Both the position numbers and the translations under genes were made by a program. From a virus, in IMG/VR virus record IMGVR_UViG_3300033153_004080, positions 1 through 32,598 of that record: DNA of 32,598 nt; one strand, given 5' to 3'. Shown here piece after piece: positions 2,824 through 32,598 of the stretch (position 1 is its first letter; each line of letters opens with the position of its first letter). The notes under the pieces are model-generated. The model searched no databases, was not told the DNA's origin, and worked only from the letters and a program-made list of their open reading frames with translations.

Positions 2824-2824
<1 letters not shown>
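2270..2824 (-). CDS. Tail-associated paralogue A (184 aa)
   Basis: First member of the array, beginning MTNYYVRTFTCG. Its ATG overlaps the fibre gene's stop (TAATG), so its synthesis is tied to that of the fibre. The product is aromatic-rich with no membrane segment. Its C-terminal 80 residues (YGWTDPQ, DEICAFFEEAK, INVYVITWE, FRKGSDSHYDS) match paralogue B well and C and D loosely. Proteins encoded right after fibre genes are often fibre tips or fibre-assembly chaperones; either could apply. Confidence 0.78.
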
Positions 2825-6651
<3,827 letters not shown>

Positions 6652-6672: not shown

Positions 6673-6688
6673 TTAAGTGTATCCACTT
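6673..6688 (-). other. Small leader hairpin before fibre gene
   Basis: A perfect inverted repeat, TAAGTG-TATC-CACTTA, lies 10 bases after late-promoter motif copy 2 and 22 bases before the fibre start. It would form a short stem near the 5' end of the fibre mRNA. The stem is only 6 bp and AT-rich, so chance is possible. Confidence 0.35.
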
Positions 6689-6698
6689 ACATAGTACA

Positions 6699-7017: not shown

Positions 7018-8313
7018 TTATACGTTTGTGAATCCTGCAATTAATAGACACTTTGCCATAGACTCAGGGAATAAAGCTTGATCAGAGTATGCTCTAAGCT
7101 CGAAACCTGCGTTGTTTGGTAAGTGTAGGAAGATCTCACCTTCACGACCTGGGGTCTTGAAAGAAACATCTTGTGCTCCAACTCTTTTGAATCTCTTAAT
7201 TGGGATTATGAAACAATCTCCGTTCTTCACACAAGAGTGAGAAACAACTTCGATCTTTCCTGCTTGTCCGTAATAAACAATACTCTTAACACCGTTGTCA
7301 CCTTTTTCAGAACTGTAAGAACTATCGAAAGCTCTTAAAGCAGAAAGGTCACTAGCAAGGTTTGCCCAAGTGTCAGGGTTAAGATAAGCAACTACGTCTT
7401 CGTCAAGTCCTTTAGCAATTGGCTTCCCAAGAGCAGAAAGGATTTTACCCATAGTTAGTTGTCCAGATTCACCAACTACGTTACCTGCCCAAAGAGCATA
7501 AGTAGAGTTGTTGATTCCAAATAAAGAACCAGAGGTACTAATCATGTTATGAAGACCAATCATCTCTCTAGCAACTGGTGCAGATCCGTGAACTGAAACA
7601 GATCCAAAGAAATACATTGCTACGATAGTATCGTCATCAATGTCATCGATGTCTCCAGTTCCTGCGTCTTGACCATTAGTTTCAGTAGCTTCATCAAGAG
7701 TAATCGTCTTGTTTGCAAAATCAACTGCAGAAATGAAGAAAGGACCGAAAGTAGCAGCACCAACTTTAACAGTTAGTCTTGAATTTTCAGAACCTGCCCA
7801 AATTCCTGGTGCCCATTGTCCTGCACCTAATGTAATCACACTAGTTGTACCAGACTTAGCAGCAGAAGTTCCAGAACCTAGACCTTTAGTTGCCTGACCA
7901 TAGATAAGACCAATTTCAAGTCTTTTAGCCATTGACTCAACCATGTTCTCAACGATCATGCTTGTACCTTTAGCAAATGCTTTCTTTCCGTTACTAGAAC
8001 GAGCAGCAGCATCATAAGATAGAGCAGATCTTAAAAGGATTTGTGATCCTTGAACATAAGCGTCTTGAGTGTTCATTGCGATGTGATCAGAAAGTGCGAA
8101 AGCACCTGCATCTGCAGAAGCATAACTGAAGCCAGCTTCTTGAGAAACGATCACGTTTTGGTGGTATTTGTTACCTAATTCTTTGTCTCTAGAGACAAAT
8201 TTAATTCTTTTTTGTAGTTTTGCATTATCAGGAACGAGATTGATTTGCTCATCACCGTAAACTTCTTTGAAGAGTCCTGTTAACACATCTGGGGAAGTAT
8301 ATGTACTTGCCAT
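7018..8313 (-). CDS. Major capsid protein
   Basis: The 431-residue product starts MASTYTSPDVLTGLFKEVYG, with an excellent ribosome-binding site (AAGGAG) upstream. It has the size and composition of a podovirus major head protein of the HK97-fold type: Ala/Gly/Ser-rich, an N-terminal arm, a long helix region (FAKGTSMIVENMVESMAKRL, about residues 113-132) resembling the spine helix, and a C-terminal region with KTPGREGEIFLHLPNNAG. It follows the scaffold gene, as expected for capsid operons. It has its own candidate late promoter and a 5' hairpin in the leader. Assignment is by context plus general resemblance to capsid proteins of marine-type podoviruses. Confidence 0.85.
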   Translation of the reverse strand: MASTYTSPDVLTGLFKEVYGDEQINLVPDNAKLQKRIKFVSRDKELGNKYHQNVIVSQEAGFSYASADAGAFALSDHIAMNTQDAYVQGSQILLRSALSYDAAARSSNGKKAFAKGTSMIVENMVESMAKRLEIGLIYGQATKGLGSGTSAAKSGTTSVITLGAGQWAPGIWAGSENSRLTVKVGAATFGPFFISAVDFANKTITLDEATETNGQDAGTGDIDDIDDDTIVAMYFFGSVSVHGSAPVAREMIGLHNMISTSGSLFGINNSTYALWAGNVVGESGQLTMGKILSALGKPIAKGLDEDVVAYLNPDTWANLASDLSALRAFDSSYSSEKGDNGVKSIVYYGQAGKIEVVSHSCVKNGDCFIIPIKRFKRVGAQDVSFKTPGREGEIFLHLPNNAGFELRAYSDQALFPESMAKCLLIAGFTNV

Positions 8314-8421: not shown

Positions 8422-8468
8422 ATAGTGATTCTTAACAGGTAGCCTTAGCATCAAATAAGAATCACTAT
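8422..8468 (-). other. 13-bp inverted repeat in capsid leader
   Basis: ATAGTGATTCTTA (8422-8434) and TAAGAATCACTAT (8456-8468) are perfect complements with a 21-base loop. On the minus strand the hairpin starts 7 bases after late-promoter motif copy 3, so it would form at the very 5' end of a capsid transcript. No U-run follows, so it is not a terminator. A 5'-terminal stabilising stem or an RNase III processing site fits. Confidence 0.65.
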
Positions 8469-15480: not shown

Positions 15481-15495
15481 ATAATCCACTTATAT
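15481..15495 (+). promoter_or_regulatory. Candidate late promoter motif, copy 6 (HNH gene)
   Basis: Plus-strand ATAATCCACTTATAT followed by CGGAATATTAATAG, 40 bases before the HNH start. The preceding base makes TATAAT, but no good -35 is at the normal distance. Its orientation matches the single plus-strand gene in this half of the genome. Confidence 0.55.
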
Positions 15496-15535: not shown

Positions 15536-16090
15536 ATGACAGAATTGACGGAAAAACGGTGTTCTTGGTGTAAGGAAACTAAACCTGTTAAAGAGTTTTA
15601 CAAGAATGCTCAACTATCTAGTGGTTACCACAGTTGGTGTAAGAGTTGTTGCAAGATGAAGAACAACGAGAGGTATGATCGTGTACAGTGGAGAGAATAC
15701 TACTTAAATGATAAGGAGAGGTATGATCAGTACCAGTGGGATTACTACGAGAAGAATAGAGAGAAGGTTGCTAAGAGGGCTTCTGCTTATAATAGGAAGC
15801 ATAGAGAGAGGATAGCAGAGAACTGTAGGATATGGCAGGATAACAACAGAGAAGCTGTTAGAGCACATAATCAGGTATGTAACGCTACTAAGAGAGGAGA
15901 GTTAGTTAAGCCTGATAAATGTGAGTGTTGTGGAGGATCAGGTTTTATAGAGTTTCACCACCCAGAGGATAAGTACGATAGCCCACTACAAGGAGTCTGG
16001 TTAAGGAGATCTTGTCACCGTCGTCTTCATAATGGGCATACCGATATAGAAATAAGAGTCAATGTTATTTATGGGGAAAAGTACGGCTAA
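15536..16090 (+). CDS. Freestanding HNH endonuclease (homing-type)
   Basis: The 184-residue product carries an N-terminal zinc-binding region (CSWC at 9-12, WCKSCC near 34-39), a long basic, Tyr-rich helical linker (residues 45-110), and a C-terminal HNH nuclease: CECC (129-132), EFHHPEDKYDSPLQGVWL (from 139) and RSCHRRLHNGH (160-168). The paired cysteines and HH...H arrangement are those of phage HNH endonucleases. The ATG at 15536 has AAGGAGG five bases upstream, so this start is preferred to a TTG six codons earlier. It is the only plus-strand gene in a minus-strand region and ends tail-to-tail with speE, sharing stop codons, as expected for a mobile gene dropped between operons. Confidence 0.88.
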   Translation: MTELTEKRCSWCKETKPVKEFYKNAQLSSGYHSWCKSCCKMKNNERYDRVQWREYYLNDKERYDQYQWDYYEKNREKVAKRASAYNRKHRERIAENCRIWQDNNREAVRAHNQVCNATKRGELVKPDKCECCGGSGFIEFHHPEDKYDSPLQGVWLRRSCHRRLHNGHTDIEIRVNVIYGEKYG

Positions 16091-16764
16091 GTACACTTCT
16101 TCACACAATGACAAAAACTCCAATCCATCATAGTTCTTCTATCTGGCATTGTACCAAATATGTCTTTTAGAAGAGGTCCAGAATAACTAGGCTCATATTT
16201 ATTACCATCTTGGCAACTTACTAACCCTTGAGGCAATAAACATCTGTGTATCTCTTCTAACCATTCTCTCTGATTCTGTTTCAGTCCAATAGAGGGTAGG
16301 TCAAATATAATATAGGAATAGTAATTATCAGGAGTCACTTGTAATACCTGATAACCGTCGTCAATTACTAAATTGAATTCATCTTGTCTGTCATAAATAT
16401 GGTTGTTCCAATCACTGAGGTGTTCACGGTATATCTCCATGGCTTCACCATCTAGCTCTATAGCGTCTATATTCTTCCAACCCTTACGTAATGCTACATC
16501 AATAGATACTCCTTCTCCTGAGCCTAATATGAGCATCCTCTCGTGGGGTTTAGGAGTATAAGGAGAACCAACTAAAGCTTCATGATAAGTAAAGTAATCG
16601 ACTTCACAAGTTTGGAGTTCCTCATCTAAAACTAAAGTTTTTCCAAAATAGTCAGACTTAAATATCTCTATCTCTTGGTACTTAGTTAGTTTGTGACAGA
16701 TCATCTCATTTACTTTTAAAAAACCAAAGTGTTTATGGTCACTGATCTTTGAGTATAGTGCCAT
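16087..16764 (-). CDS. speE: Spermidine synthase (aminopropyltransferase)
   Basis: The 225-residue enzyme should transfer an aminopropyl group from decarboxylated AdoMet to putrescine or another diamine. Family marks: YQEIEIFKS and FGKTLVLDEELQTCEVDYFTYHEAL (residues 29-64, with the YHE of the active site), the nucleotide loop LILGSGEGV (78-86, normally GGGDGG), AIELD (101-105), the VIDDGYQVL segment (133-141) and the catalytic aspartate in IIFDLPS (D155). It is about 50-70 residues shorter than typical bacterial SpeE. The start is the ATG that shares a base with the speD stop (TAATG), with GGAG inside the speD end. The speD-speE order and coupling show a pathway unit. Confidence 0.9.
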   Translation of the reverse strand: MALYSKISDHKHFGFLKVNEMICHKLTKYQEIEIFKSDYFGKTLVLDEELQTCEVDYFTYHEALVGSPYTPKPHERMLILGSGEGVSIDVALRKGWKNIDAIELDGEAMEIYREHLSDWNNHIYDRQDEFNLVIDDGYQVLQVTPDNYYSYIIFDLPSIGLKQNQREWLEEIHRCLLPQGLVSCQDGNKYEPSYSGPLLKDIFGTMPDRRTMMDWSFCHCVKKCT

Positions 16765-17105
16765 TACTGTCTCCAACTATAGTTATCATTATCTCTCTTT
16801 ACAACTTGCATCTCTACTACTTCTGCAGATAAATATCCTGCTAGAGTTTCTAGAACTGTTTTAGTACAAATATCAGGATTACAACAGAATAAATCAACAT
16901 GAGCTATCTGATCTTCTGGATAAGTGTGAATACTTAAGTGACTCTCTGCTAATAAGATTACTGCAGTATATCCCTGTGGTGAGAAGTTGTGAAAAGTAGT
17001 TTTAATTACTGATAAACTGTGGTTGTGACAAGTGTCTAGTAGTTTGTTGAGTATAAGGTTGTTGTCCGAGAAGTTCCCTTTCAACTTTCCTAGTGAATGC
17101 TCCAT
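16764..17105 (-). CDS. speD: S-adenosylmethionine decarboxylase proenzyme (SpeD, class 1B type)
   Basis: The 113-residue proenzyme is predicted to cut itself between E54 and S55 in LLAESHLSIHTYPED, making a pyruvoyl cofactor from the serine. H60 and C75 (DLFCCNPD) sit at +5 and +20 from S55, the spacing of S63/H68/C83 in the Thermotoga maritima enzyme. FHNFSPQGYTAVILLAESH is the family signature. The usual N-terminal VDxYGC strand is degenerate here (LGKLKGNFSDNN). Product: decarboxylated AdoMet for SpeE encoded next. Some SpeD family members have become ornithine or arginine decarboxylases, so substrate is not certain. AAGGAGA is five bases before the ATG and a sigma-70 promoter lies upstream. 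Confidence 0.92.
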   Translation of the reverse strand: MEHSLGKLKGNFSDNNLILNKLLDTCHNHSLSVIKTTFHNFSPQGYTAVILLAESHLSIHTYPEDQIAHVDLFCCNPDICTKTVLETLAGYLSAEVVEMQVVKRDNDNYSWRQ

Positions 17106-17168: not shown

Positions 17169-17183
17169 ATAATCTACTTATCT
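17169..17183 (+). promoter_or_regulatory. Candidate late promoter motif, copy 7 (small RNA)
   Basis: Plus-strand ATAATCTACTTATCT followed by TATAATATATATG. No protein gene follows on this strand; instead a hairpin and an intrinsic terminator lie 50-90 bases downstream. The match to the other six copies is full over ATAATNYACTTATNT. Confidence 0.55.
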
Positions 17184-17189
17184 TATAAT

Positions 17190-17275
17190 ATATATGTTAA
17201 TTATCCTCCTAGATTATTAACATTATTTTCCCCTATAAGATCTTTAATACCATTTAGTCTTATAGGGGTTTTTTT
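17190..17275 (+). ncRNA. Putative small RNA with CCUCCU loop and intrinsic terminator
   Basis: A promoter motif (17169-17183) and a strong plus-strand terminator (17230-17275) bracket a non-coding stretch. A transcript starting near 17190 would be about 80-85 nt. Its first hairpin is GTTAATTAT (17196-17204) with ATTATTAAC (17213-17221), one mismatch, exposing loop CCTCCTAG, complementary to Shine-Dalgarno sequences. The second is the terminator stem. Its 3' end is antisense to the last five codons of the replication initiator gene. Start, existence and role are inferred. Confidence 0.45.
17230..17275 (+). terminator. Intrinsic terminator (plus strand)
   Basis: CCCCTATAAG (17230-17239) pairs perfectly with CTTATAGGGG (17259-17268) over a 19-base loop and is followed by seven T residues (17269-17275). 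The U-run is only on the plus strand; on the minus strand the stem is followed by AAAATAATG. It therefore terminates plus-strand transcription, although no protein gene on that strand precedes it directly. Confidence 0.8.
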
Positions 17276-18051
17276 CTGTTAAGAGACTGACCTAAACAAT
17301 TATAAATATACATATACCCAACATCATTCTCTTTAAACTTATCAGGTTTAAATCTAATAGCTAAGTTATTAATCTCTTTCCTAATAACATCTTCTTTTAA
17401 ATCAGGAAAATAAGATTGTAGATCAGCAACAATATCAAAACTACTATTTCTTAACCACCTAAAGTCTCCCTCATCATTCCTAGATAAGAGTACACTTAAC
17501 TGACCTTCTGATAAGAGTTTCTCTGTTAACTTCTTAAGTGGCTCTTTTTTATTCTCAGAGAGTGACTCCGTAGGAGTCACGTTAGAAGAAGAAATGTCAC
17601 TCTCTATAGTGACAGAGTCAGAAATGTCTTTATCTTCTCTTATCTTATGTAATGTTATCTTATCTTCTTTTATCTTATCTTCTCTTATCTGTTTACCAGA
17701 GTTCTGTAATTTCACATAGTTATTATATGTGATTGTTACAACCTTGTTACTATGCTGTAACAAGTCAATCCCAAATATCTTAAGTTCTTTAATGAAACTT
17801 ATAATAGTTGCCTTATTTAGGTGCGAGAGTGTTACTAGTCTGTTCAGATTAAGTTCAAATTCTTGATCTAAAGTTGAGTCTTCTCCTCTTAATGTGAACG
17901 TGATGTAACTTTCTATTATGATGAGAAGCAACAATATTTTATGTTGGTTTCTACCTTCTAGTTCCCAAATGTCTTCAACAGCATCCGAGTGAAATAGGTG
18001 GGTATTAAATTTGAACCAAGGTTTTGGTCCTTCAATTTTTGTCTTAGCCAT
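17260..18051 (-). CDS. Replication initiator / replisome organiser (winged-helix type)
   Basis: The 263-residue product has an N-terminal domain (about residues 1-118) with helices and beta hairpin in a winged-helix arrangement (LNRLVTLSHLNKATIISFIKEL, then VVTITYNNYVKLQ), as in phage replication organisers. A low-complexity linker rich in REDK/KEDK follows at about 119-142, then a Ser/Thr/Glu linker, and a C-terminal helical domain (about 165-255). The linker DNA is an iteron cluster, which matches phages whose origin lies inside the initiator gene. No helicase or polymerase is encoded nearby, so it presumably recruits host proteins. AAGGAG precedes the ATG. Confidence 0.7.
   Translation of the reverse strand: MAKTKIEGPKPWFKFNTHLFHSDAVEDIWELEGRNQHKILLLLIIIESYITFTLRGEDSTLDQEFELNLNRLVTLSHLNKATIISFIKELKIFGIDLLQHSNKVVTITYNNYVKLQNSGKQIREDKIKEDKITLHKIREDKDISDSVTIESDISSSNVTPTESLSENKKEPLKKLTEKLLSEGQLSVLLSRNDEGDFRWLRNSSFDIVADLQSYFPDLKEDVIRKEINNLAIRFKPDKFKENDVGYMYIYNCLGQSLNRKKPL
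17558..17692. other. Candidate replication origin: iterons plus inverted repeats
   Basis: Inside the initiator gene, the hexamer TTATCT (AGATAA on the coding strand) occurs seven times at 17630, 17640, 17655, 17660, 17670, 17675 and 17685, with all spacings multiples of five. A 16-base unit TTATCTTCTCTTATCT is perfectly repeated (17630-17645 and 17675-17690), and TTATCTTATCTTCT twice (17655-17668 and 17670-17683). Beside them lie GTGACTCC-GTA-GGAGTCAC (17562-17580) and TGTCACT-CTCTAT-AGTGACA (17595-17614). This resembles the lambda O-gene type of origin. Confidence 0.55.
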
Positions 18052-18064
18052 TTTAAAAATCTCC

Positions 18065-18101
18065 TTGACAAGACGTTATCAATTAAGTTACGGTTTGTCA
18101 A
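18065..18101 (-). promoter_or_regulatory. Promoter and operator-like inverted repeat before the replication initiator
   Basis: On the minus strand TTGACA (18101-18096) is followed after 17 bases by TAACGT (18078-18073), a perfect -35 with a weak -10. The -35 is half of a perfect inverted repeat, TTGACAA (18065-18071) and TTGTCAA (18095-18101), with centres 30 bp apart. The second arm lies just after the -10 and overlaps the AAGGAG of the initiator gene. A regulator bound to both arms would cover the promoter. Confidence 0.5.
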
Positions 18102-18138
18102 CTTTAATAAATCCCCTGTATCCATGATGCAGTGTACC

Positions 18139-18168
18139 TTGACGGAGTGTTTTAAACTTTGATATAAT
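18139..18168 (+). promoter_or_regulatory. Early sigma-70 promoter for the rightward operon
   Basis: TTGACG (18139-18144), an 18-base spacer, and a consensus TATAAT (18163-18168). Transcription should begin about seven bases later, just before the AGGAG of the first gene. This is the strongest host-type promoter in the window. Confidence 0.85.
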
Positions 18169-18186
18169 GTGGCTCTAGGAGAAGAG

Positions 18187-18528
18187 ATGAATTTACAAAT
18201 GGCTAAGAAACTTTCAGATTCTAAAGTAGAATTTATTGAGAAGAAAAAGATATATGAGGTAACGAACATTTCTAACCTTATAAGTCTACGGTGTACAAAA
18301 GAGGGCGGTGTTTTAGTTTACACTATCTACCAAGACTCTCTTAAGCAAGATCAATTCGTAACCTTATTAAAGTATATAAAGACACACATGATTGATCAAG
18401 GTTACAGTGTTGACAGAATCCCACATAATAGAACTGATTGCTACATCTTTCTATTTAGTTGGGAAAAGACTGTTGATGACATTTTATCTGAGAGTGTTGA
18501 AGAGACTATGGTAAGCGGACCAGTGTGA
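18187..18528 (+). CDS. Early hypothetical protein 1 (113 aa)
   Basis: First gene of the rightward operon. The ATG at 18187 has AGGAG five bases before it; a GTG at 18169 would fall before the expected transcription start. The product MNLQMAKKLSDSKVEFIEKK... is a small soluble alpha/beta protein without a recognised family. Early-expressed, unrecognised small phage genes often inhibit host functions, but nothing in the sequence says which. Confidence 0.75.
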   Translation: MNLQMAKKLSDSKVEFIEKKKIYEVTNISNLISLRCTKEGGVLVYTIYQDSLKQDQFVTLLKYIKTHMIDQGYSVDRIPHNRTDCYIFLFSWEKTVDDILSESVEETMVSGPV

Positions 18529-18818
18529 TAGAACATGAGATAACTCACCATTCTATAGACGGTAACATCACCATTGAGATTCATGATGAGAAACTTAACG
18601 CTCTCTTAAGAAGAAGAGGATGCTTTGAGATTTTTGATCCTGATTTAAATGGTTATGTTGACTTCTTCACAGGTACTACACCCTCTATGCCTGGAAGTCA
18701 CTATCAAGTAGTGAGAGTCTTAAAGACGCTTGGTAACTTAAAGAGGTACAACTTTATAGAGTTGTTGTTTGGGCTACCAAGAAAAGAAGAAGAGTATAAA
18801 GGTGGTTACTTATTTTGA
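18525..18818 (+). CDS. Early hypothetical protein 2 (97 aa)
   Basis: Starts at a GTG that overlaps the previous stop (GTGTGA), so translation is coupled. The product MIEHEITHHSIDGNITIEIH... has a beta-rich start, a basic patch (LLRRRGCFEIF) and a helical end. Its own stop overlaps the TTG start of the next gene in the same manner. No family recognised. Confidence 0.7.
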   Translation: MIEHEITHHSIDGNITIEIHDEKLNALLRRRGCFEIFDPDLNGYVDFFTGTTPSMPGSHYQVVRVLKTLGNLKRYNFIELLFGLPRKEEEYKGGYLF

Positions 18819-19171
18819 AACCGTGGGGATGGAGTTTATCCGTAGATTTAAAATCCTGTAACTCTGATCTCATTAGAGATGCAGAAGCTATTAAAAATTT
18901 TGTTGTTGAACTCTGTAATTTAATCGAAATGAAACGCTATGGCGAATGTCATGTAATTAACTTCGGTGAAGATCCTGATGTGGCAGGATTTTCAATGTTT
19001 CAACTGATAGAGACTAGTAACATTAGTGCTCATTTCGTTAACAAGACTAACGCCATTTATTTGGACGTGTTCTCCTGTAAAGAGTATGACCCCCAAATGG
19101 TCGCCCAATTTGCAGAAATCTACTTTGAAGCCCAATCCTATCAAACAAACTTTATTGAAAGACTCGCCTAA
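18815..19171 (+). CDS. Second SpeD-family protein (divergent AdoMet decarboxylase homologue)
   Basis: The 118-residue product begins WGWSLSVDLKSCNSDLIRDA (residues 4-23), the N-terminal VDxxxC strand of SpeD. LIETSNISAHF matches LLAESHLSIHT of the canonical SpeD without gaps through to DVFSC: S68 is the would-be pyruvoyl serine, H73 is at +5 and C88 at +20, as in T. maritima. However the residue before the serine is Thr rather than Glu, the next is Asn rather than His, and TYPED is replaced by FVNKT. It starts at TTG overlapping the previous stop. It could be a decarboxylase with another substrate (ornithine, arginine), an AdoMet decarboxylase, or a subunit that regulates the other SpeD. Confidence 0.82.
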   Translation: MKPWGWSLSVDLKSCNSDLIRDAEAIKNFVVELCNLIEMKRYGECHVINFGEDPDVAGFSMFQLIETSNISAHFVNKTNAIYLDVFSCKEYDPQMVAQFAEIYFEAQSYQTNFIERLA

Positions 19172-19200
19172 CTCCCCAGTATTATAGGGTAAAATAAATG

Positions 19201-19239
19201 TTGCACTGCATCCAGAAGTATGGTATCCTGATATCAGGA
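19201..19239 (+). promoter_or_regulatory. Promoter with overlapping 14-bp palindrome
   Basis: TTGCAC (19201-19206), 17 bases, TATCCT (19224-19229), 30 bases before the lipoprotein ATG. The -10 overlaps a perfect 14-bp palindrome, TCCTGATATCAGGA (19226-19239), a likely regulator binding site that would block or shape transcription of the lipoprotein and the genes behind it. Confidence 0.5.
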
Positions 19240-19258
19240 CTGAAACAACGGAGGATGA

Positions 19259-19594
19259 ATGAAAACAATTATAATGGCACTAACAATGATTATCTTAACT
19301 TCTTGTGGATCGACTAGCTATGTAAAAGTTGACCCTGTTAACATGAAGCGTTTTAACCATGACCAAAAGATGGTAGAGGGCTTATCGAGACAAGAGGTAC
19401 TGACTAGATTTGGTTCACCAGACCAAGCCTTTGAAACAACTTTCGGTACAAAAGGTGCGGTTGTTTGGAGATACCACCACAAGATATTCTGTTCTCATAA
19501 AGGGACAAGATGTGATGTTTATTTTAGAAACGATAGAGTAATTTATACGAGTAATTTTAGAATGGAATTTAATAATACCGTAGCAGGGAGATAA
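19259..19594 (+). CDS. BamE/SmpA-like lipoprotein
   Basis: The 111-residue product has a signal peptide with lipobox LTSC, the lipidated residue being C16. The mature part carries GLSRQEVLTRFGSPDQAFET (residues 41-60) and VVWRYHH, the signature of the SmpA/OmlA (BamE) domain fold, followed by two cysteines (C78, C85) and a beta-rich end. It would be exported and anchored in the outer or inner membrane of a Gram-negative host. Known phage lipoproteins block superinfection by binding outer-membrane receptors or act in lysis as spanins; the BamE likeness could also mean interference with outer-membrane protein assembly. GGAGG lies before the ATG. Confidence 0.82.
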   Translation: MKTIIMALTMIILTSCGSTSYVKVDPVNMKRFNHDQKMVEGLSRQEVLTRFGSPDQAFETTFGTKGAVVWRYHHKIFCSHKGTRCDVYFRNDRVIYTSNFRMEFNNTVAGR

Positions 19595-19596
19595 TA

Positions 19597-19785
19597 GTGT
19601 CTTTCTCTGATATGCGTACAGAACAGTTGGAACTCATACTCGAAGATGTAGAAGAGAGTATGGATGAAGAGATTCCAGATTCTGAAGAATGGGTAAGACT
19701 TAAACATTACCAAGGTAACTTAATAGTGATAATTGGATTTAGATTATCTAAGGAGAAGAAAAATGGCAAAGAAAGTAAGATTTGA
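19597..19785 (+). CDS. Acidic early hypothetical protein (62 aa)
   Basis: The product MSFSDMRTEQLELILEDVEE... starts at GTG with GGGAG seven bases upstream; an ATG five codons in (MRTEQ) is an alternative. Acidic first half, then helical, then basic (RLSKEKKNGKESKI). The last 23 bases overlap the next gene. No family recognised. Confidence 0.6.
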   Translation: MSFSDMRTEQLELILEDVEESMDEEIPDSEEWVRLKHYQGNLIVIIGFRLSKEKKNGKESKI

Positions 19786-20050
19786 AACGGTACAGGAACT
19801 AGAGGTATTAAAAATTAAGGCAGAGCTTGCATATGAACTCTACCACGAGTTGTGTAACAAGCTCTACAAGAAGCATGGGGAAGCTCAAATTTACTCTGAG
19901 ATGGAACCTGACGATCAAGGTAAAGCGTTCTTGCGAGTGTCTTTAATAGACAATGTGAAGAAGCTAGAGGCAGGTGAAGCTGTTGTTGGGATTAGTATGG
20001 TGAGAAGTCTAGGTGTTAAGATAGAACGTCTTAAAAACCAACCTAAATAG
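19763..20050 (+). CDS. Early helical hypothetical protein (95 aa)
   Basis: The product MAKKVRFETVQELEVLKIKA... starts at the ATG with AAGGAG before it, ten codons inside a longer open frame; the longer form lacks a ribosome site. Mostly helical with mixed charges, possibly a coiled coil at residues 8-30. No family recognised. Confidence 0.75.
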   Translation: MAKKVRFETVQELEVLKIKAELAYELYHELCNKLYKKHGEAQIYSEMEPDDQGKAFLRVSLIDNVKKLEAGEAVVGISMVRSLGVKIERLKNQPK

Positions 20051-20058
20051 GAGGATAT

Positions 20059-20301
20059 ATGACTAAAGAAGAATTGGAAAAGTTAATGACAGTGCATGGT
20101 ATTACTTACCTAGAGATCATTAAGATTTATGAAGGTAAAGGTGATGCTCTGAGTGCTTTAGCTATTACAAAAAAAGATGACCCTGTTAAGTTTACTATCC
20201 TACAGTACAACGAGGAAGATGGCTTCTCGGTTCTTACAGTTGACGATGACTTGTTAGAAACAAATATCTCTAGGGAAGCTTTTCTAAAAGATGTTAAATA
20301 A
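20059..20301 (+). CDS. Early hypothetical protein (80 aa)
   Basis: The product MTKEELEKLMTVHGITYLEI... has an N-terminal helix and then a beta-rich part (FTILQYNEEDGFSVLTVDDD). AGGAGG sits at the right distance from the ATG, predicting good expression. It precedes the separate promoter of the sigma gene. No family recognised. Confidence 0.75.
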   Translation: MTKEELEKLMTVHGITYLEIIKIYEGKGDALSALAITKKDDPVKFTILQYNEEDGFSVLTVDDDLLETNISREAFLKDVK

Positions 20302-20304
20302 AAG

Positions 20305-20334
20305 TTGACACACCACTAAGTCCTTCTATATCAT
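20305..20334 (+). promoter_or_regulatory. Sigma-70 promoter for the phage sigma gene
   Basis: TTGACA (20305-20310), 18 bases, TATCAT (20329-20334), followed 29 bases later by the sigma gene ATG. This lets the sigma factor be made from its own transcript in addition to read-through from the promoter at 18139. Confidence 0.75.
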
Positions 20335-20366
20335 AATATCATGAGCCAAGGATGGTGATATTATGA
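20331..20366 (+). promoter_or_regulatory. 11-bp inverted repeat covering promoter and start codon of the sigma gene
   Basis: TCATAATATCA (20331-20341) and TGATATTATGA (20356-20366) are perfect complements. The left arm overlaps the -10 and expected transcription start; the right arm contains the ATG (20363-20365). The 14-base loop carries the AAGGA ribosome site. As DNA it looks like an operator; as RNA in a read-through transcript it would bury the start codon, whereas RNA begun at the local promoter would lack most of the left arm. Confidence 0.7.
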
Positions 20367-20947
20367 AAGAAGTGTACACTTTAGAGGATCACTTAAAGTA
20401 TAATTCTGAAGATACCAAAAGAATTGTACTTAAGGTGTTCCCCCACATTCAGAAGTTCTACGACCTAGAAGATGTAAAGCAACATATGTATGAGAGATTT
20501 CACAAGAACCGCACCGTTCAAAGATGGGACTGTGATAAACCTGCTAAATACTCTACTTATATGTATAGGTGTATATCCAACTTTATTTTATCTTATTATC
20601 CCAAGAAACCTAGTTATGCTAATCGTTTAATCTCTGACAGTATTAGTCTAGAAACACCTGTTGCAGTAGATAGTTCTATGACTATTGGAGATACAATTGC
20701 TGACAAAGAAGTTAAGCAAGATATGTTATTAGATCTCCCCCATATTAGGACTAGCCTAGCGAAAGCCTCTAATAAAAGACAGAAACGAAAAGTAGCTTTA
20801 GATGAGTTATTTGAGTTCTATTTAAAAGGTTACACTGACACTGAAATAAGTAGAGCCAAGAACATCACTGTTGCAGGAGTTGGTTGTGCTAAAAGAGATT
20901 TACGAAAAGTTATGGTTAATATAGGTGTTACTTCTCTTTGCTATTAA
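20363..20947 (+). CDS. Phage-encoded RNA polymerase sigma factor (sigma-70 family, ECF-like)
   Basis: The 194-residue product should redirect host RNA polymerase to phage promoters. Region 2 lies at about residues 20-80: YDLEDVKQHMYERF (33-46) followed by WDCDKPAKYSTYMYRCISNF (55-74), the aromatic and polar residues that melt and bind the -10. Region 4 lies at about 144-185: LDELFEFYLKGYTDTEISRA with the helix-turn-helix IS-RAKNITVAGVGCAKRDLRKVM. The spacer between them lacks region 3, as in small alternative sigma factors. As the last gene of the early operon, with its own promoter and an operator-like inverted repeat, it is the likely early-to-late switch. It ends tail-to-tail with the lysis region, overlapping by 20 bases. 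Confidence 0.85.
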   Translation: MKEVYTLEDHLKYNSEDTKRIVLKVFPHIQKFYDLEDVKQHMYERFHKNRTVQRWDCDKPAKYSTYMYRCISNFILSYYPKKPSYANRLISDSISLETPVAVDSSMTIGDTIADKEVKQDMLLDLPHIRTSLAKASNKRQKRKVALDELFEFYLKGYTDTEISRAKNITVAGVGCAKRDLRKVMVNIGVTSLCY

Positions 20948-21152
20948 AAGGTGAGAACTTCTTTAAAGCTCTTAACACATCCCCCAATATAGGAGTAGCT
21001 AATAGCTTCTTCATAAAGCCATGATCTTTCTCATCAGGAATAAGATTATCAATAACTGTTCCGACAACAACAAGTGCTCCGAGTCCGATAAATAAATAGC
21101 TTACCCAAGGGGCTAGTGTCATTAAAAATTCTAATACTGGTGTCCACTCCAT
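20928..21152 (-). CDS. Small membrane protein, holin candidate (74 aa)
   Basis: The product MEWTPVLEFLMTLAPWVSYL... has one clear hydrophobic segment (about residues 8-35, WVSYLFIGLGALVVVGTVI) and a basic C-terminus (LKKFSPFNSKEK). Short, single-span, basic-tailed and last in the late transcript: these fit a holin or pinholin, which times lysis by permeabilising the membrane. No endolysin is recognised next to it, so the assignment is tentative. Confidence 0.55.
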   Translation of the reverse strand: MEWTPVLEFLMTLAPWVSYLFIGLGALVVVGTVIDNLIPDEKDHGFMKKLLATPILGDVLRALKKFSPFNSKEK

Positions 21153-21791
21153 TTACTTCTCCTTCTTGTAGTTCATCGAGTCTATCTTTAGCTTGTCTAA
21201 ATCCTTCTTAATATCTCTACCGATAATAAGTCCATTTATAGCTTTAGAATATACATAACTATTACCAGAATATTGCATTATCTGTTTCAAAGAGGATCTC
21301 TCATCCCCAAGTAAAGTGCTAAGTAGCTTAATATATATCCTGTGTAAGTAGGGTACTTTCTTAGCAAGTGTATCAAGTCGGTACAAATAGTTAAGAGGTG
21401 CATCGTCCATCTCTAGTCTTATTCCCCAAATATTTCCATTGATCTTTATATGATCTTTTATTGGGGTATGATTAAAGGTTAAGAAGAACTTCTCAGAGTT
21501 AATAAAAGCACTTAAAGACATCGCAATACCGCAATCTATTTCTTCATCATAGTCTGCAATAGTATCACAAATACTAATAAGCTCTCTAGCTTCCAATACT
21601 CGTAGAAACTCTAACTCGTGTTCTAGGTACTGCCTCTTAAAGTTGCAGTAATCTTCTCTGTTGTGAGTACGTCTTAATTTTATTATGTACTTTTTTAATC
21701 GGATAAATAGGTCGGGTTCTAGGGAGACATCTTCATTACAAATGCTCATGTCTTCACGGTCAATTTCAAACTTTCGGTATTTCTCTAGCAT
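21153..21791 (-). CDS. Hypothetical protein in lysis region (212 aa)
   Basis: The product MLEKYRKFEIDREDMSICNE... is soluble, Leu/Ile/Lys-rich and mostly helical, without signal peptide. I do not recognise a peptidoglycan hydrolase motif (no clear E-D-T lysozyme triad or amidase zinc ligands). It lies between two small membrane proteins and ends one base from the next gene's start, so it may be a lysis factor or an unfamiliar lysin. The start lacks a Shine-Dalgarno and is 6 bases after the upstream stop, suggesting translational coupling. Confidence 0.6.
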   Translation of the reverse strand: MLEKYRKFEIDREDMSICNEDVSLEPDLFIRLKKYIIKLRRTHNREDYCNFKRQYLEHELEFLRVLEARELISICDTIADYDEEIDCGIAMSLSAFINSEKFFLTFNHTPIKDHIKINGNIWGIRLEMDDAPLNYLYRLDTLAKKVPYLHRIYIKLLSTLLGDERSSLKQIMQYSGNSYVYSKAINGLIIGRDIKKDLDKLKIDSMNYKKEK

Positions 21792-23846: not shown

Positions 23847-25097
23847 TTATAGCCCTGCTTTTTTCCTAACAGCGTCTGCTCTAGGATCGTCTGGATTTTC
23901 TGCTAACCACTTTTTAATGGACTCTAGTTTTTTATCAGCTATCTTTGCAACTCCTGCACCTGCAGTTTTAGCTACACTTCTAGCTGCTTCTTTTTGTTCA
24001 GGACTCCAACCTTTAAGTGTGCCTTGCTCACCAAAGTAAGAAGCTCTTGAATCCATAGTTCCTGCGTTAGTCTCTAACTCCGCAATAGCTTTATCAATCT
24101 TATCTATATTTATTTGAGGGTCTTGCTTTTCGTTATAAGAAGCCGCCATGATTCTCTCGCCTTCTTTCTCAGTGAACTGAGCACCTAATGTTGCTCGTAA
24201 TGCTCCTTGAGCAGCAGCGTGAATATCTTCTCTTAATGCTATAGACTCTCCTGATCTCATCCAATCAGGTAACCTTCCTGTCATACGACCTGAAGTTCCC
24301 ATGTAATCATCTTTACGTTCTACTAAAATAGCTCTAGCATCTCTAAGACGTTTCATGTTTTTATCGTAAGTACCACGACCAGAAGTATTCCAAGTATTGT
24401 AATCTTTAGCGAACTCACGGTCCATTGTTTTCACACCTTCCGTTGGTTTTGCTAATCTTACTTTCTCGGCAATACCTGCTTTTTTCTCTGCTAACTTAGT
24501 TTGGAATTCTTGTCCTTCTTTTGTTCGCTCTCTAGATTCATCAAGACTCATTTGCTTAAGTTCTTTTTGTTGCTCAAAAGACTTATCTCCACGTTCAAGA
24601 GCTTTCATTTTAATTAGTTCATCGAGTTGTTTTCTCTGTTCTATAGAAGGATCAACAACACCTGCAATAGCTCTTTGCTTATCAACATCCCAACCTTTCT
24701 TAAGTTTTCCTGAGACAGACAAGTCTTGACCTTTAGTAGCCATTCCTTGCATCGCTGCTGCAAAGATACCTGCACCTCTTTGGAAACCACTTGGTCCTGC
24801 TTCTTGACCTGCTTGTGCTCTAGACGCTTTAAAAGCTTCTTGATCTGCTTCACGGTTTTGATATTTCTCCATAAGACTAGCTTGTAGTCTCGCTAACTCT
24901 CCACCTTGCTCTTCAGGCATATCTAAGTCACCTGTTTCTAGTTGAGGTAAATCAAAGCTAGGTGCTTGTTGAGTAGGCATAGTTGAATCGGGCATAGTGA
25001 GTTCTGGAACTCTACCACCCATTCTTTGATCTAAGTATTTTTGAAACTCAGGGTCCATTGGATCAAATTTGTATTCACCAAAATTATAACCGTTCAT
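23847..25097 (-). CDS. Internal virion protein (416 aa)
   Basis: The product MNGYNFGEYKFDPMDPEFQK... is Gln/Glu/Lys/Ala-rich and mostly helical, with acidic N-terminal PELTMPDSTMPTQQAPSFDL and a large coiled-coil-like middle (QKELKQMSLDESRERTKEGQ region). It overlaps the upstream gene's end by 14 bases and is one base from the downstream ejection protein. Position and composition suggest an internal core or ejection component. No enzymatic motif seen. Confidence 0.6.
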   Translation of the reverse strand: MNGYNFGEYKFDPMDPEFQKYLDQRMGGRVPELTMPDSTMPTQQAPSFDLPQLETGDLDMPEEQGGELARLQASLMEKYQNREADQEAFKASRAQAGQEAGPSGFQRGAGIFAAAMQGMATKGQDLSVSGKLKKGWDVDKQRAIAGVVDPSIEQRKQLDELIKMKALERGDKSFEQQKELKQMSLDESRERTKEGQEFQTKLAEKKAGIAEKVRLAKPTEGVKTMDREFAKDYNTWNTSGRGTYDKNMKRLRDARAILVERKDDYMGTSGRMTGRLPDWMRSGESIALREDIHAAAQGALRATLGAQFTEKEGERIMAASYNEKQDPQINIDKIDKAIAELETNAGTMDSRASYFGEQGTLKGWSPEQKEAARSVAKTAGAGVAKIADKKLESIKKWLAENPDDPRADAVRKKAGL

Positions 25098-26325
25098 CTT
25101 CGTCCTCCAACCTGTTCATTCTATCGTTTAGTCTTCCGACTGAAGCTAGAACCGCATGTAAAGCTTTAGTAGCATCAATGCCTTTGACTCCGTCTTCCAT
25201 AGGCTCAACAACTTTTTCACCCATTGGAGATTTTTCTAAGTCTTGAGCCATCACTCCTAATCGCTCACCTTCCCCATATTTATCAGGGTCTTTATAATTA
25301 TATTTATAACCAGTAATTTCATTTAAAAACTGATCGATATCTATTGGAGCTTCTTCAATGTTTTCTTTTACTCTAACGTCTGAAGCTGCAGTTGGAGCAG
25401 TGGTTGTCGTTGGAGTGGTTCCTCCACCCCCACCAGATCCCATTGCTACTGCAGTGGCTATTCCTGCTGCCATACCCAATCCTGCTTGGGACTGTTGACC
25501 GTACAAGTCTGCCATCTGTCTTTGTCCACCTGATCTAGCACTAGCTAGATTTAATCGGTTAGCATAGTCTTGTTGAGCCATTCCTGACTCTTGCATTAAC
25601 TCTTGGTTTCTTAGAGCAATATTTGCATCTGCAATTCTTTGTTTTTCTCTTAAATTAGCTAATTGAGCTTCGTTCATCATACCAACATTCATCCTTTCAG
25701 TTTGTTGTTGGTTAGCAACATTAAATTGATCCATAAGATCTCTAGCTTTAGCAAGTTCTGCTTGTTCACTATATTCTTGCTCTCGCATCTGACCGCCCAT
25801 CTGTCCTGCAGACATCAGAGCATCCATTTTTTGTTGTTGTGATAAAGCCGCTACTTGAGCATCTCTCATAGCTTGTCTAGTTGCTGCGTCTTGTTGACTC
25901 TGCATCTTAGACATCATCTCTAGACCACCACCTCCACGACCTTGCATTGCTGCTTGTTGCGTGATAGCTTCTCTAGCACCTCTTTCTTGTGTCATCTCCT
26001 CTTGTCGAATCTTTTTTAATTCAAATCTATCTGAAGCAGTTAATCCTTCTTCTGCTCTTTCTTGAAGAGCCATCAAAGCACCGTATTGAGCTTCTTTCAA
26101 TTTAGGGTCTGTTCTTATTTCTTCGAAAGCGGAAGATTCCATTAAAATGGTTTCTGCCATCTCAGGAGTAAGAATACCCTGCGAGGTTAGACGTTCTAAT
26201 TCTATTGCTCTTTGCTCTGGTATCTGAATTCCTTCAAAATACTCTAAAGCACGTCGCATGGCTTCTTCTTGATCTGCCCAATTAGTAAGACCTATAGCAT
26301 CTGTGACTCCTGAAAAAATTCCCAT
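25084..26325 (-). CDS. Internal virion-type protein with C-terminal S74 chaperone domain (413 aa)
   Basis: Residues about 1-270 are helical and Gln/Met/Arg-rich with long coiled coils (EYSEQAELAKARDLMDQFNV). A short hydrophobic Gly-rich stretch follows (GLGMAAGIATAVAMGSGGGG) then a Thr/Ala/Pro linker (TTPTTTTAPTAA). From S315 comes SDVRVKENIEEAP...YNYKDPDKYGEGERLGVMAQDLEKS...ATKALHAVLASV, a peptidase S74 domain with the self-cleavage serine and the helical end. S74 domains usually sit on trimeric fibres; here it is joined to what looks like an ejection-type protein. Trimerisation and cleavage after assembly are therefore predicted. Confidence 0.72.
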   Translation of the reverse strand: MGIFSGVTDAIGLTNWADQEEAMRRALEYFEGIQIPEQRAIELERLTSQGILTPEMAETILMESSAFEEIRTDPKLKEAQYGALMALQERAEEGLTASDRFELKKIRQEEMTQERGAREAITQQAAMQGRGGGGLEMMSKMQSQQDAATRQAMRDAQVAALSQQQKMDALMSAGQMGGQMREQEYSEQAELAKARDLMDQFNVANQQQTERMNVGMMNEAQLANLREKQRIADANIALRNQELMQESGMAQQDYANRLNLASARSGGQRQMADLYGQQSQAGLGMAAGIATAVAMGSGGGGGTTPTTTTAPTAASDVRVKENIEEAPIDIDQFLNEITGYKYNYKDPDKYGEGERLGVMAQDLEKSPMGEKVVEPMEDGVKGIDATKALHAVLASVGRLNDRMNRLEDEDERL

Positions 26326-26327
26326 GA

Positions 26328-26666
26328 TTACCTACCTCCGCCTAGAGCCTTTAGAGCTGCTAGTTTGTCCTGACCTCCCTCCATAGGAGGAGCAGTTTTA
26401 CCTGCCTCTTTGTCATTTTGTTCTGCGAAAGCCTCTTCCATGTCATCCATAAATTCATCAAACTCATCATCATCCCACTCATCCCAATCTGGAATTTGTT
26501 GGTTTAACAAGTTTGCAAAATCTTGAATTTCAGGTTCTTGCATTTGAGGAAGAAATTCATTTATGACCGCAGTAAATTCTTGATAAGACATTTCAGGAGA
26601 ACCTTGCCATACTTCTGTAGGTGCCTCTTGAGGTTGTCCCATCATTTCTGGTTTTATTTCATTCAT
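26328..26666 (-). CDS. Acidic structural accessory protein (112 aa)
   Basis: The product MNEIKPEMMGQPQEAPTEVW... is very acidic with DWDEWDDDEFDEFMDDMEEA around residues 56-75. Its ATG overlaps the stop of the preceding gene (TAATG) and the next gene starts two bases after its end. The strong negative charge and location among ejection proteins suggest a chaperone or DNA-mimic-like assembly factor, by inference only. Confidence 0.65.
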   Translation of the reverse strand: MNEIKPEMMGQPQEAPTEVWQGSPEMSYQEFTAVINEFLPQMQEPEIQDFANLLNQQIPDWDEWDDDEFDEFMDDMEEAFAEQNDKEAGKTAPPMEGGQDKLAALKALGGGR

Positions 26667-28885
26667 TACTTATCTCCGTTTAATACTTTAAGACATTGAT
26701 CATCAGTGAGTCCTTGGGAGTTATCAATCTCGTCATAATCCGCAAAAACTGTGTCATTTATAATCATTATATGGTTTTCACACGATAAAGTAGTCACATA
26801 TTCTATTTCATCGTCACATACCATCGCTTGTTGAGATTTGTTTACTCTGACCCATTTACCATTTTCTTTAACTGCGTGAGAACCACTAACAAGTGTCCCA
26901 CAATAGTCATACATAGGTGAATTATTTAAGTAGGAACTTTTCCCATAAACTTTACCACCCTCATAAACAATATCTCCAAGTTCTATGTAGCAAATTGGCT
27001 TGAAACTACCATCTTGCATCTTAACTTCTGTATGGTTTGGAAAACAGAATAAACCACCAATTGCACCACCTAAAAATCCACCAATCACCGCACCTGCGGC
27101 TGTTCCAACGACTGGAAAATATGATCCAACAATTGCTCCTGCAGTTGCACCAATTACTGTACCTGTTGCAGTAGCTTTCTCTTTCTTATCTTGAGCGTCT
27201 GCTCTTTCCTGAGCTGCTGCGGTAGCACTTTCTTGTGCTTGAGTATATTCGTCTGCAAGCCTAGCATTTTCTTCTCTAGCTGATCTTCTAGCTGCTACAT
27301 CTGTTTGGTATTTCTCTAAATTAAATGCTTGTGTAGGATCTGCATACTCACCATATTTACCTGCTTGTAACTCATAAGGAGAGAAAGTAGATTTTACACC
27401 AGTAAGTTCTTCAAGAGCTTTAAGTCTTGAGTAGTCCTCTGCAGTAGCTACATTATACTTACTAATTTGACCCGTTCTTCCTTGATCAAAGTAACCTGTG
27501 GCATCTAAATATTCACTTTCTTTAGTACCAACACCATATTGAGCTTTTATTTCTTCTAATTTAGCTAGGTAATCTTTTTCTGCTTGTGCTCGAATATCTC
27601 CTGCTTGAGTTTCAAACTCACCTTCTTCTCTACCTATATTGAATTCTTCTTGCATTCTTCTTCTAGTCTCTGCAGAAGTTTCTCTTCCTGATAAAACTTC
27701 ACCTGAAGCCATCGCTTTAAGAGCATCTAATCTACTTTGAATGTCTGATTCACCTGCAGTAGCTCTAAGAGCCTCCATAGACTCAGCGTCTGCTGCTAAA
27801 AGTGCTTTATCTAGATCGAGTACACCTTTTGAGTATCTTCCTGATTCAGATGGACGTGCTCTTGCAATTAGTTCTTCAAGACCTTCACCACTCTCTATAA
27901 GACCTTTAGTTCTCATAGCTTTTTGTGCTTGTCCTAAAGCAGTTTGGTAATATTCTTGACCCATAATATCTTGTGGACCACCATACTGTGCTCCGTAGAG
28001 TTCTTTGAATCTTTGTACTGCTGCTTCATCACCTAAAAATGATGTAGGTGTTTCTGGTTGAGGAGCTACTTCTCCCCCCATTTCTCTCGGAGTTGCAATA
28101 GGTTTACCGCTTGCATCTAATCCAACATTGGGGTCAGTGTACTGAGCACCTTCTCCTAGAGTCTTATAGCTAGGATCATCAAAGATACCTTTTTTTAAAG
28201 CAAATAGCCTATCAAGTTCAGCTTGTTGTTCTGGAGTATAGTCATAAACTTGTCTAGTTTTATCAATCCCTTTTACATTATAAAGTTCTTCTTTCATTGC
28301 AGAATCTTTTTGAAGATTAGCAATTTGCTCGTCATAACCTCGAATTTGATCTTGCATACCCTCATCATATTTATAAGGGTCTATATACTCGGTAGTTCTG
28401 ATTTCAGGTTGTAGTCCATCAAAAACAGGTTCTATAGCAGGACCAGAAGTTGCTATTGGAGTAGGTGGTTGAGCGACTAGAGGAGCTTGAGGTGCTTGAG
28501 GAATAACATAATCTTTATCAGTAAGCTCTTGTTTAGCTCTACCAAAGATGTCTTCATCCATTCCAACAGTTCCACCTGCAACGTCCTCTTTAAATCGAGT
28601 ACCTGCTCCTTCAAGACCTGTTCTAGCTTCTCCAACATCTCCAGAGATAACTCCACCAACATCGCTTGCTAATTTTTGAATCTTAGGTCGGTTAGCTGCT
28701 AGATACTTTTGAATATCTGTGATACCTGCACCTGCACCTGCTTTAGGAGCTTCTACTTTAGCGGCAGGAGCTGCTGCCCCACCACCTGCAGTCATTACAC
28801 CACCAGGAGCACCACCTTGGATAAATCCTTCTTCTTCCTTACCTTCTTCTTCATCAAGTTCGGGTTTTTTTACTTCATAAACCAT
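26666..28885 (-). CDS. Large internal virion protein ending in glycine zipper and Hint domain
   Basis: The 739-residue product has an Ala/Gly/Pro-rich start, a long helical, Gln/Glu/Ala-rich body (about residues 190-560), then a glycine-zipper membrane segment (about 575-613: TVIGATAGAIVGSYFPVVGT...GGFLGGAIGGLF) followed at C614 by CFPNHTEVKMQDGSFKPICY, an opening Cys block of Hint (hedgehog/intein) folds. GTLVSGSHAV (663-672) is the block-B-like TxxH motif and VFADYDEI the closing strand. No His-Asn plus downstream nucleophile is seen at the end, so cleavage rather than splicing is expected. Autocleavage would release the zipper-bearing portion from the 125-residue domain. AAGGAGC precedes the ATG. 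Confidence 0.78.
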   Translation of the reverse strand: MVYEVKKPELDEEEGKEEEGFIQGGAPGGVMTAGGGAAAPAAKVEAPKAGAGAGITDIQKYLAANRPKIQKLASDVGGVISGDVGEARTGLEGAGTRFKEDVAGGTVGMDEDIFGRAKQELTDKDYVIPQAPQAPLVAQPPTPIATSGPAIEPVFDGLQPEIRTTEYIDPYKYDEGMQDQIRGYDEQIANLQKDSAMKEELYNVKGIDKTRQVYDYTPEQQAELDRLFALKKGIFDDPSYKTLGEGAQYTDPNVGLDASGKPIATPREMGGEVAPQPETPTSFLGDEAAVQRFKELYGAQYGGPQDIMGQEYYQTALGQAQKAMRTKGLIESGEGLEELIARARPSESGRYSKGVLDLDKALLAADAESMEALRATAGESDIQSRLDALKAMASGEVLSGRETSAETRRRMQEEFNIGREEGEFETQAGDIRAQAEKDYLAKLEEIKAQYGVGTKESEYLDATGYFDQGRTGQISKYNVATAEDYSRLKALEELTGVKSTFSPYELQAGKYGEYADPTQAFNLEKYQTDVAARRSAREENARLADEYTQAQESATAAAQERADAQDKKEKATATGTVIGATAGAIVGSYFPVVGTAAGAVIGGFLGGAIGGLFCFPNHTEVKMQDGSFKPICYIELGDIVYEGGKVYGKSSYLNNSPMYDYCGTLVSGSHAVKENGKWVRVNKSQQAMVCDDEIEYVTTLSCENHIMIINDTVFADYDEIDNSQGLTDDQCLKVLNGDK

Positions 28886-31876: not shown

Positions 31877-32598
31877 TATTTCCTCCAGATCCCTCTAGTA
31901 TTTACCAGTTTCTTAACTTCATTAGACACTCTAGGAGTAAGAATAGTAGAAGCAGAATCTTTTGACATGGAGAGTGACTCTCCAGTAAGCTTCACGCCTT
32001 CCATATCCTTTATAGAAATCATTGCCTTTAAAATAGCTGACTGAATCAATACTTCTCTAACTTCTATAGGAAGATTAGGTATAGCTCGATAGTCCCTCTG
32101 ACAAATGAAGTCTCCAACAGTTGGTCCAGTTTCATTAAACTCAACAGTGTCTAGTGACTCTGAAGCACCTACAATTCTGTTATCTTCAAGATCATAAGGT
32201 TGGGTGTAAACTGTGTCGGTACTGTTAATAGGATAATCTACCCAATCTGCAATAGTAGTAGCAGTGGTATTTATTCTTTTAACTGTAGCAGTCAAAGTAC
32301 CTTCTACCCACTCAGTAATCTCCATAATATTATCTGGAACATCAAGAGGGTGTGGTCTTTTGTAGTAATACACTCTAATTGTGTCAGAAACAGTATTAGC
32401 AGGGTAAAACTTGATGTTATTACCTTCTAAATAAAATCCTAGCACAGTGTTATAGACGAGTTCTTCTTTGGTGAGTCTAGGGACATTACCTATAATATTA
32501 TCACCAGAAACTAGGAGAACATCTTGTAGTTTTCCACCTATCGCATCACTTGGGATTGCTATTGTGTCTGCAGCAGAAAAATCTGTGTAAGTAGTGTA
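31876..32598 (-). CDS. Tail tubular protein A-like (gp11-like), C-terminal part, 5' end at window edge
   Basis: This is the remainder of the gene that begins at 267. Because bases 32485-32598 repeat 1-114, this fragment includes codons 52 to the stop (240 residues here, 291 in the joined gene). It contains EELVYNTVLGFYLEGNNIKF, then VYYYKRPHPLDVPDN and a C-terminal helix (LSMSKDSASTILTPRVSNEV). An internal ATG (MLGFYLEG) would give a shorter product but the uninterrupted frame upstream across the junction shows the true gene is longer. It precedes the gp12-like gene with a TAATG overlap. Confidence 0.62.
   Translation of the reverse strand, partial: YTTYTDFSAADTIAIPSDAIGGKLQDVLLVSGDNIIGNVPRLTKEELVYNTVLGFYLEGNNIKFYPANTVSDTIRVYYYKRPHPLDVPDNIMEITEWVEGTLTATVKRINTTATTIADWVDYPINSTDTVYTQPYDLEDNRIVGASESLDTVEFNETGPTVGDFICQRDYRAIPNLPIEVREVLIQSAILKAMISIKDMEGVKLTGESLSMSKDSASTILTPRVSNEVKKLVNTRGIWRK
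32485..32598. repeat. Terminal direct repeat, right copy
   Basis: Identical to bases 1-114. See the left copy. No other sequence features (no cos-like site or GC-rich block) mark the repeat. Confidence 0.95.

Follow-up and report, generated by a model that had tools for sequence, protein, structure and literature searches.

The start codon of a probable sigma factor gene in the genome of an uncultured phage analysed here is enclosed in a perfect 11-bp inverted repeat that also overlaps a promoter-like sequence just upstream (Table 1), and the predicted folds suggest that the accessibility of this start codon depends on where the mRNA begins. The window, that is the whole stretch of DNA analysed, is 32,598 nucleotides long. 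We give about an even chance to the interpretation that the hairpin is an RNA lock, which silences sigma translation on read-through messages. Specifically, mRNA from the upstream promoter at 18139 would run unterminated through an island of small genes and would fold the left arm of the repeat onto the start codon, so that the sigma gene, carried 3′-most on this message, would be barely translated. Conversely, mRNA from the local promoter would start at about A20341, without the left arm, and would be translated. In other words, sigma output would depend on the local promoter and be independent of the upstream one, with whatever effect on timing this may have.

Table 1. Features of the sigma gene start and of the transcripts predicted to reach it
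Feature	Position	Strand	Basis
Upstream promoter, TTGACG-18-TATAAT, TG before −10	18139..18168	+	sigma-70 consensus 11/12; heads the island
Upstream ORF, 80 aa	20059..20301	+	ORF list
Local promoter, TTGACA-18-TATCAT	20305..20334	+	sigma-70 consensus 11/12; TTGACA 20305-20310, TATCAT 20329-20334
Lower helix, 5′ strand CUUCU	20323..20327	+	MFE fold, RNA parameters
Left arm, TCATAATATCA	20331..20341	+	perfect 11-bp complement of right arm; −10/+1 zone
Loop, 14 nt	20342..20355	+	contains Shine-Dalgarno-like AAGGA, 20348-20352
Right arm, TGATATTATGA	20356..20366	+	perfect complement of left arm; covers ATG 20363-20365
Probable sigma-70-family gene, 194 aa	20363..20947	+	TIGR02937 and phrog_351 matches
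Lower helix, 3′ strand AGAAG (sigma codons 2-4)	20368..20372	+	MFE fold, RNA parameters

The probable sigma gene and its genome

The product of 20363-20947 is probably a sigma factor, as judged from several distant similarities. In particular, the protein matches TIGR02937 with an E-value of 6.4e-6 and 25.9 bits, below the 42.9 cut-off of that model, and phrog_351 (RNA polymerase sigma factor) with an E-value of 4.5e-5, while Pfam gives matches to sigma r2 and r3, both below cut-off. It shares 24% identity with a sigma-like ORF in a contig filed as Listeria phage (tblastn, E 5e-4), and 23-25% identity, together with S-SL and YL-G motifs, with sigma-like ORFs of unannotated phage-collection contigs. 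Among solved structures none matched the protein convincingly, and a single-sequence structure model, built with no alignment, was uninformative (pLDDT 42). An in-frame TGA stop at 20342-20344 makes the ATG at 20363 the earliest start codon that the frame could use.

Relatives of the sigma protein were found neither in IMG/VR nor in genome contigs, and none close was found in phages, the best reaching 25-27% identity. The portal protein, by comparison, has 80 IMG/VR loci at 41-50% identity. Searches of 35 whole contigs of portal-related phages gave no sigma match by protein, PF04542 or phrog_351, the phrog_351 search recovering the window itself as a positive control; TIGR02937 likewise found no sigma match in portal-related contigs but missed the window too, and is given little weight. 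At the DNA level, the region 18000-21200 showed no similarity to phages.

The first 114 bp of the contig (1-114) are identical to its last (32485-32598), as found by sequence comparison within the window. This makes it either a circular or a terminally redundant contig, and it is probably a complete genome of ~32.5 kb; its GC content is 38%, i.e. AT-rich. The − strand carries nearly all genes, with those for terminase, portal, capsid and tail, and the only multi-gene island on the + strand extends over 18169-20947, with the sigma gene as its last gene. Several other features were observed along this genome. AdoMet decarboxylase and spermidine synthase genes (18815-19171, 16764-17105, 16087-16764) represent polyamine synthesis genes in a phage, the small ORF 16764-17105 beside the synthase being, by eye, a second AdoMet decarboxylase look-alike. 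TTATC-type tandem repeats at 17630-17690, within the − strand ORF 17260-18051 and near the divergent promoter region, are iteron-like and a possible replication origin. A perfect 13-bp inverted repeat with a loop of 21 (8422-8468) occupies the gap that precedes the gene for the major capsid protein, without a T run, and a perfect 18-bp palindrome (8182-8199) lies inside that gene. The C-terminal part (26666-27100) of a 739-aa protein starts with CFPNHTEV and has, by eye, the look of a Hint or intein-type domain, Pfam recognising in this protein only a Gly-zipper ahead of that part. Finally, the tail fibre of 1275 aa (2824-6651) contains long collagen-like repeats and ends with a Peptidase_S74 chaperone, and ORF 25084-26325 carries a second S74 domain.

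Promoter overlap and predicted occlusion of the start codon

The earlier note had described a perfect 11-bp inverted repeat whose arms lie on the −10/+1 region (left) and on the ATG (right), and both coordinates and description are correct. The left arm takes in the last four bases of the −10-like TATCAT and extends to the predicted +1, which the spacing from the −10 would place at about A20341, the last base of the arm, and the AAGGA lies ten bases ahead of the sigma ATG. With a +1 at A20341 the mRNA would open with the AUG of a 5-codon ORF (MSQGW stop), and a second short ORF (MVIL), beginning at 20352, has a stop codon that shares bases with the sigma ATG.

Across the genome, just two sites, those at 18139 and 20305, agree with the sigma-70 consensus at 11 of 12 positions or better (shuffles give 1.0). 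No terminator-like site was found on the + strand between 18168 and 20331, the stretch that a read-through mRNA would have to cross. The inverted repeat was also tried as an intrinsic terminator, and this was rejected, as neither arm is followed by a T run on either strand. The stop codon of the 80-aa ORF and the sigma ATG are separated by 61 nt, so that, judging from the footprint of the ribosome, a ribosome terminating at this ORF should be too distant to melt the hairpin.

In the RNA, the stem consists of 12 pairs, i.e. the 11-bp repeat and a G-U pair, followed by a lower helix (CUUCU/AGAAG) that falls outside the DNA inverted repeat, whereas the Shine-Dalgarno-like AAGGA is mostly unpaired and lies in the loop, outside the stem. 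The 61-nt segment has a minimum free energy of −19.4 kcal/mol (z −4.12), and none of 200 shuffles was as stable. In the predicted fold of the read-through RNA the probability that the AUG is unpaired is 0.00, and the codon is fully paired in every read-through context tried. By contrast, in RNAs starting at 20341-20345 the AUG is predicted to be 70-93% unpaired. Similarly, the energy needed to open the region −14..+3 falls from 16.0 kcal/mol in the read-through RNA to 4.0 when transcription starts at 20341 and to 3.4-3.7 for later starts. The cost of opening the translation initiation region of the sigma gene is the highest among 44 genes (15.5, the next being 10.5). The claim that the start codon is hidden in the read-through mRNA and open in the local one is therefore well supported by folding, in the sense of a prediction and for starts at 20341 or beyond.

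The outcome hinges on the exact start, and this counts against the RNA lock. The predicted +1 at 20341 suits a transcript without the 5′ strand of the hairpin, but the AUG would be only partly released if transcription began 1-4 nt further upstream: in RNAs beginning at 20337-20340 the codon is 72-97% paired through a smaller alternative fold, although for starts at 20338-20340 the opening of this fold is cheaper (5.0-6.5 kcal/mol). The position of the Shine-Dalgarno-like sequence in the loop and the host type of both promoters are further points against the lock, as is the lack of covariation that follows from having found no relatives. An RNA thermometer was considered and rejected: there is no Rfam match, and the opening cost drops smoothly from 22.4 kcal/mol at 10 °C to 16.0 kcal/mol at 37 °C, which implies no melting near growth temperature.

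It had also been proposed that this arrangement places a timing check on the early-to-late switch, and this part is not supported. Since both promoters, local and upstream, match the same host-type sigma-70 consensus at 11 of 12 positions, their sequence gives no reason for a later firing of the local one. The anatomy supports a sigma output uncoupled from the upstream promoter, rather than an early-to-late delay. A search for late-promoter motifs in the gaps on the − strand gave nothing above shuffles. The sequence TAAGTRGATWM has three exact matches (6679-6689, 15482-15492 and 17170-17180), all on the − strand and in gaps before − strand genes; it is a possible phage-sigma promoter element, but one that was picked out post hoc and does not exceed shuffles.

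Operator and chance as alternatives

The repeat can also be read at the level of DNA. In this case a phage or host regulator would bind the palindrome on the −10/+1 region together with the arm at the ATG and repress the local promoter, the hairpin being a by-product. The left arm sits on the −10, in favour of such an operator; the two arms are 22 bp apart, approximately two helical turns, and the left half TCATAATATCATGA (20331-20344) is itself a near-palindrome. In addition, a 16-mer matching TATCMTRATATCAKGA is present at 20329-20344 and at 19224-19239 (13 of 16 positions identical). The second copy reads TATCCTGATATCAGGA, and its last 14 bases form the perfect palindrome TCCTGATATCAGGA, which overlaps a weak extended −10 before a lipoprotein-like ORF at 19259, in an intergenic gap of the island. 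That a second promoter-like site carries a similar palindrome favours a role in the DNA, against the RNA lock. Nevertheless, the shared motif was noticed after the fact and is a lead only, 6 of 400 shuffles of the two gaps giving an equally good 16-mer match, and in the entire genome there are just two such sites, none of them at the 18139 promoter. Moreover, Pfam and PHROGs searches recognised no repressor in the proteins encoded by the island, and the pairing extends into the asymmetric lower RNA helix, which an operator does not need. We consider this reading rather unlikely.

A further possibility is that an AT-rich repeat in a genome of 38% GC fell on the start codon by chance and has no function. 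The window contains three perfect repeats with arms of 11 bp or longer and loops of 3-30, where 0.5 would be expected, and no relative was found in which the repeat is conserved. In terms of occlusion, the sigma start is the second most occluded among all 998 ATGs of the genome, and 2 of the 998 reach its value; from this the chance that any one of 44 genes would be this occluded is about 9%, which is not negligible and weighs against the RNA lock, though the chance is lower once occlusion is joined with the promoter overlap. On the other hand, the repeat coincides with a strong promoter match, of which the genome has only two, its fold has a z of −4.1, and among the 44 ATG-first ORFs of the window the sigma gene alone has its start codon covered by such a repeat. 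The same was seen in 0 of 1490 ORFs of portal-related phage contigs, a rough background as base composition was unmatched, and in 0 of 139 ORFs in pieces of T4, phiEco32 and 7-11, likewise unmatched in base composition. Within the window no Rfam model matched, and two exact copies of the repeat were found in IMG/VR, both in unrelated contexts. Taken together, the repeat is probably real beyond chance, though not certainly so, and a functionless coincidence appears unlikely.

The operator and the RNA lock are not mutually exclusive, since in T4 I-TevI one promoter is shared between an operator and a hairpin. It is conceivable, if improbable, that a promoter-embedded start-codon hairpin and an operator at the same sequence jointly gate sigma, so that despite strong read-through sigma could be made from one regulated promoter only; if true, the master switch of the phage transcription programme would be guarded by a translational insulator. 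A double lock as in I-TevI (PMC2988022), in which the operator would switch the local promoter and the hairpin would stop leakage from read-through, draws on the evidence for both functions and has that precedent, but it is very unlikely, as its regulator is without independent evidence and one short sequence would have to carry both functions.

Comparison with known systems

For the RNA lock, the closest parallel is the lysozyme gene e of bacteriophage T4, in which long transcripts lead to 100-fold lower synthesis, and late promoters lie in the 5′ strand of the structure, immediately upstream of the gene, giving transcripts without the 5′ part (PMC3014915). As in gene e, and in soc and 49, a start-site hairpin would form in long upstream transcripts and the predicted local promoter lies inside its 5′ strand. 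The opening energies of both RNAs are also nearly equal to those of gene e, for which the same calculation gives 15-17 kcal/mol in the long RNA versus 2.7-3.7 in the short one. In these respects, and as far as predicted folds of one sequence can tell, the window appears to have the anatomy and the energy scale of the experimentally proven gene e device. There are also differences: gene e is driven locally by phage late promoters and has its Shine-Dalgarno sequence in the stem, whereas here the promoter is host-type, the stem contains the AUG, the Shine-Dalgarno-like sequence lies in the loop, and the gene probably encodes a sigma factor in an unrelated phage genome. The resemblance to T4 genes that had been suggested thus holds for hairpin layout and energies but not for temporal class: by sequence, the local promoter does not belong to a later class, both promoters being of the sigma-70 type (11/12), and for this reason the sigma gene is not classed with gene e.

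The same hairpin layout is found in the homing endonuclease genes I-TevI, I-TevII, I-TevIII, segB and Aeh1 mobE. In I-TevI the late promoter overlaps with both a hairpin and an operator (PMC2988022), and for I-TevII we computed an opening cost of 13.0 kcal/mol. Unlike the gene described here, these are intron-borne or inserted between genes, have late promoters and encode no transcription factor.

With regard to its probable function, the gene resembles the phage sigma genes of 7-11 (gp47), phiEco32 (gp36) and T4 (gp55). The sigma gene of phage 7-11 is thought to be first read by read-through from early promoters, and a stem-loop is present in the preceding gap (PMC8948821); that stem-loop, in contrast to the one in the window, has a UUCGG-type loop and is proposed to help expression. 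The starts of these known sigma genes are open (7.5 kcal/mol for gp47, 5.9 for gp36 and 4.5 for gp55), which indicates, for a small sample, that phage sigma genes do not commonly have a hairpin occluding their start. The start-hiding layout was already known from T4 lysis and homing-endonuclease genes, and it offers a simple two-transcript test of how phages block sigma synthesis by read-through. If the RNA lock is true, promoter, start site and RNA lock would all be contained in one short sequence, and the device known from T4 lysis and endonuclease genes would also guard a transcription switch in an unrelated phage.
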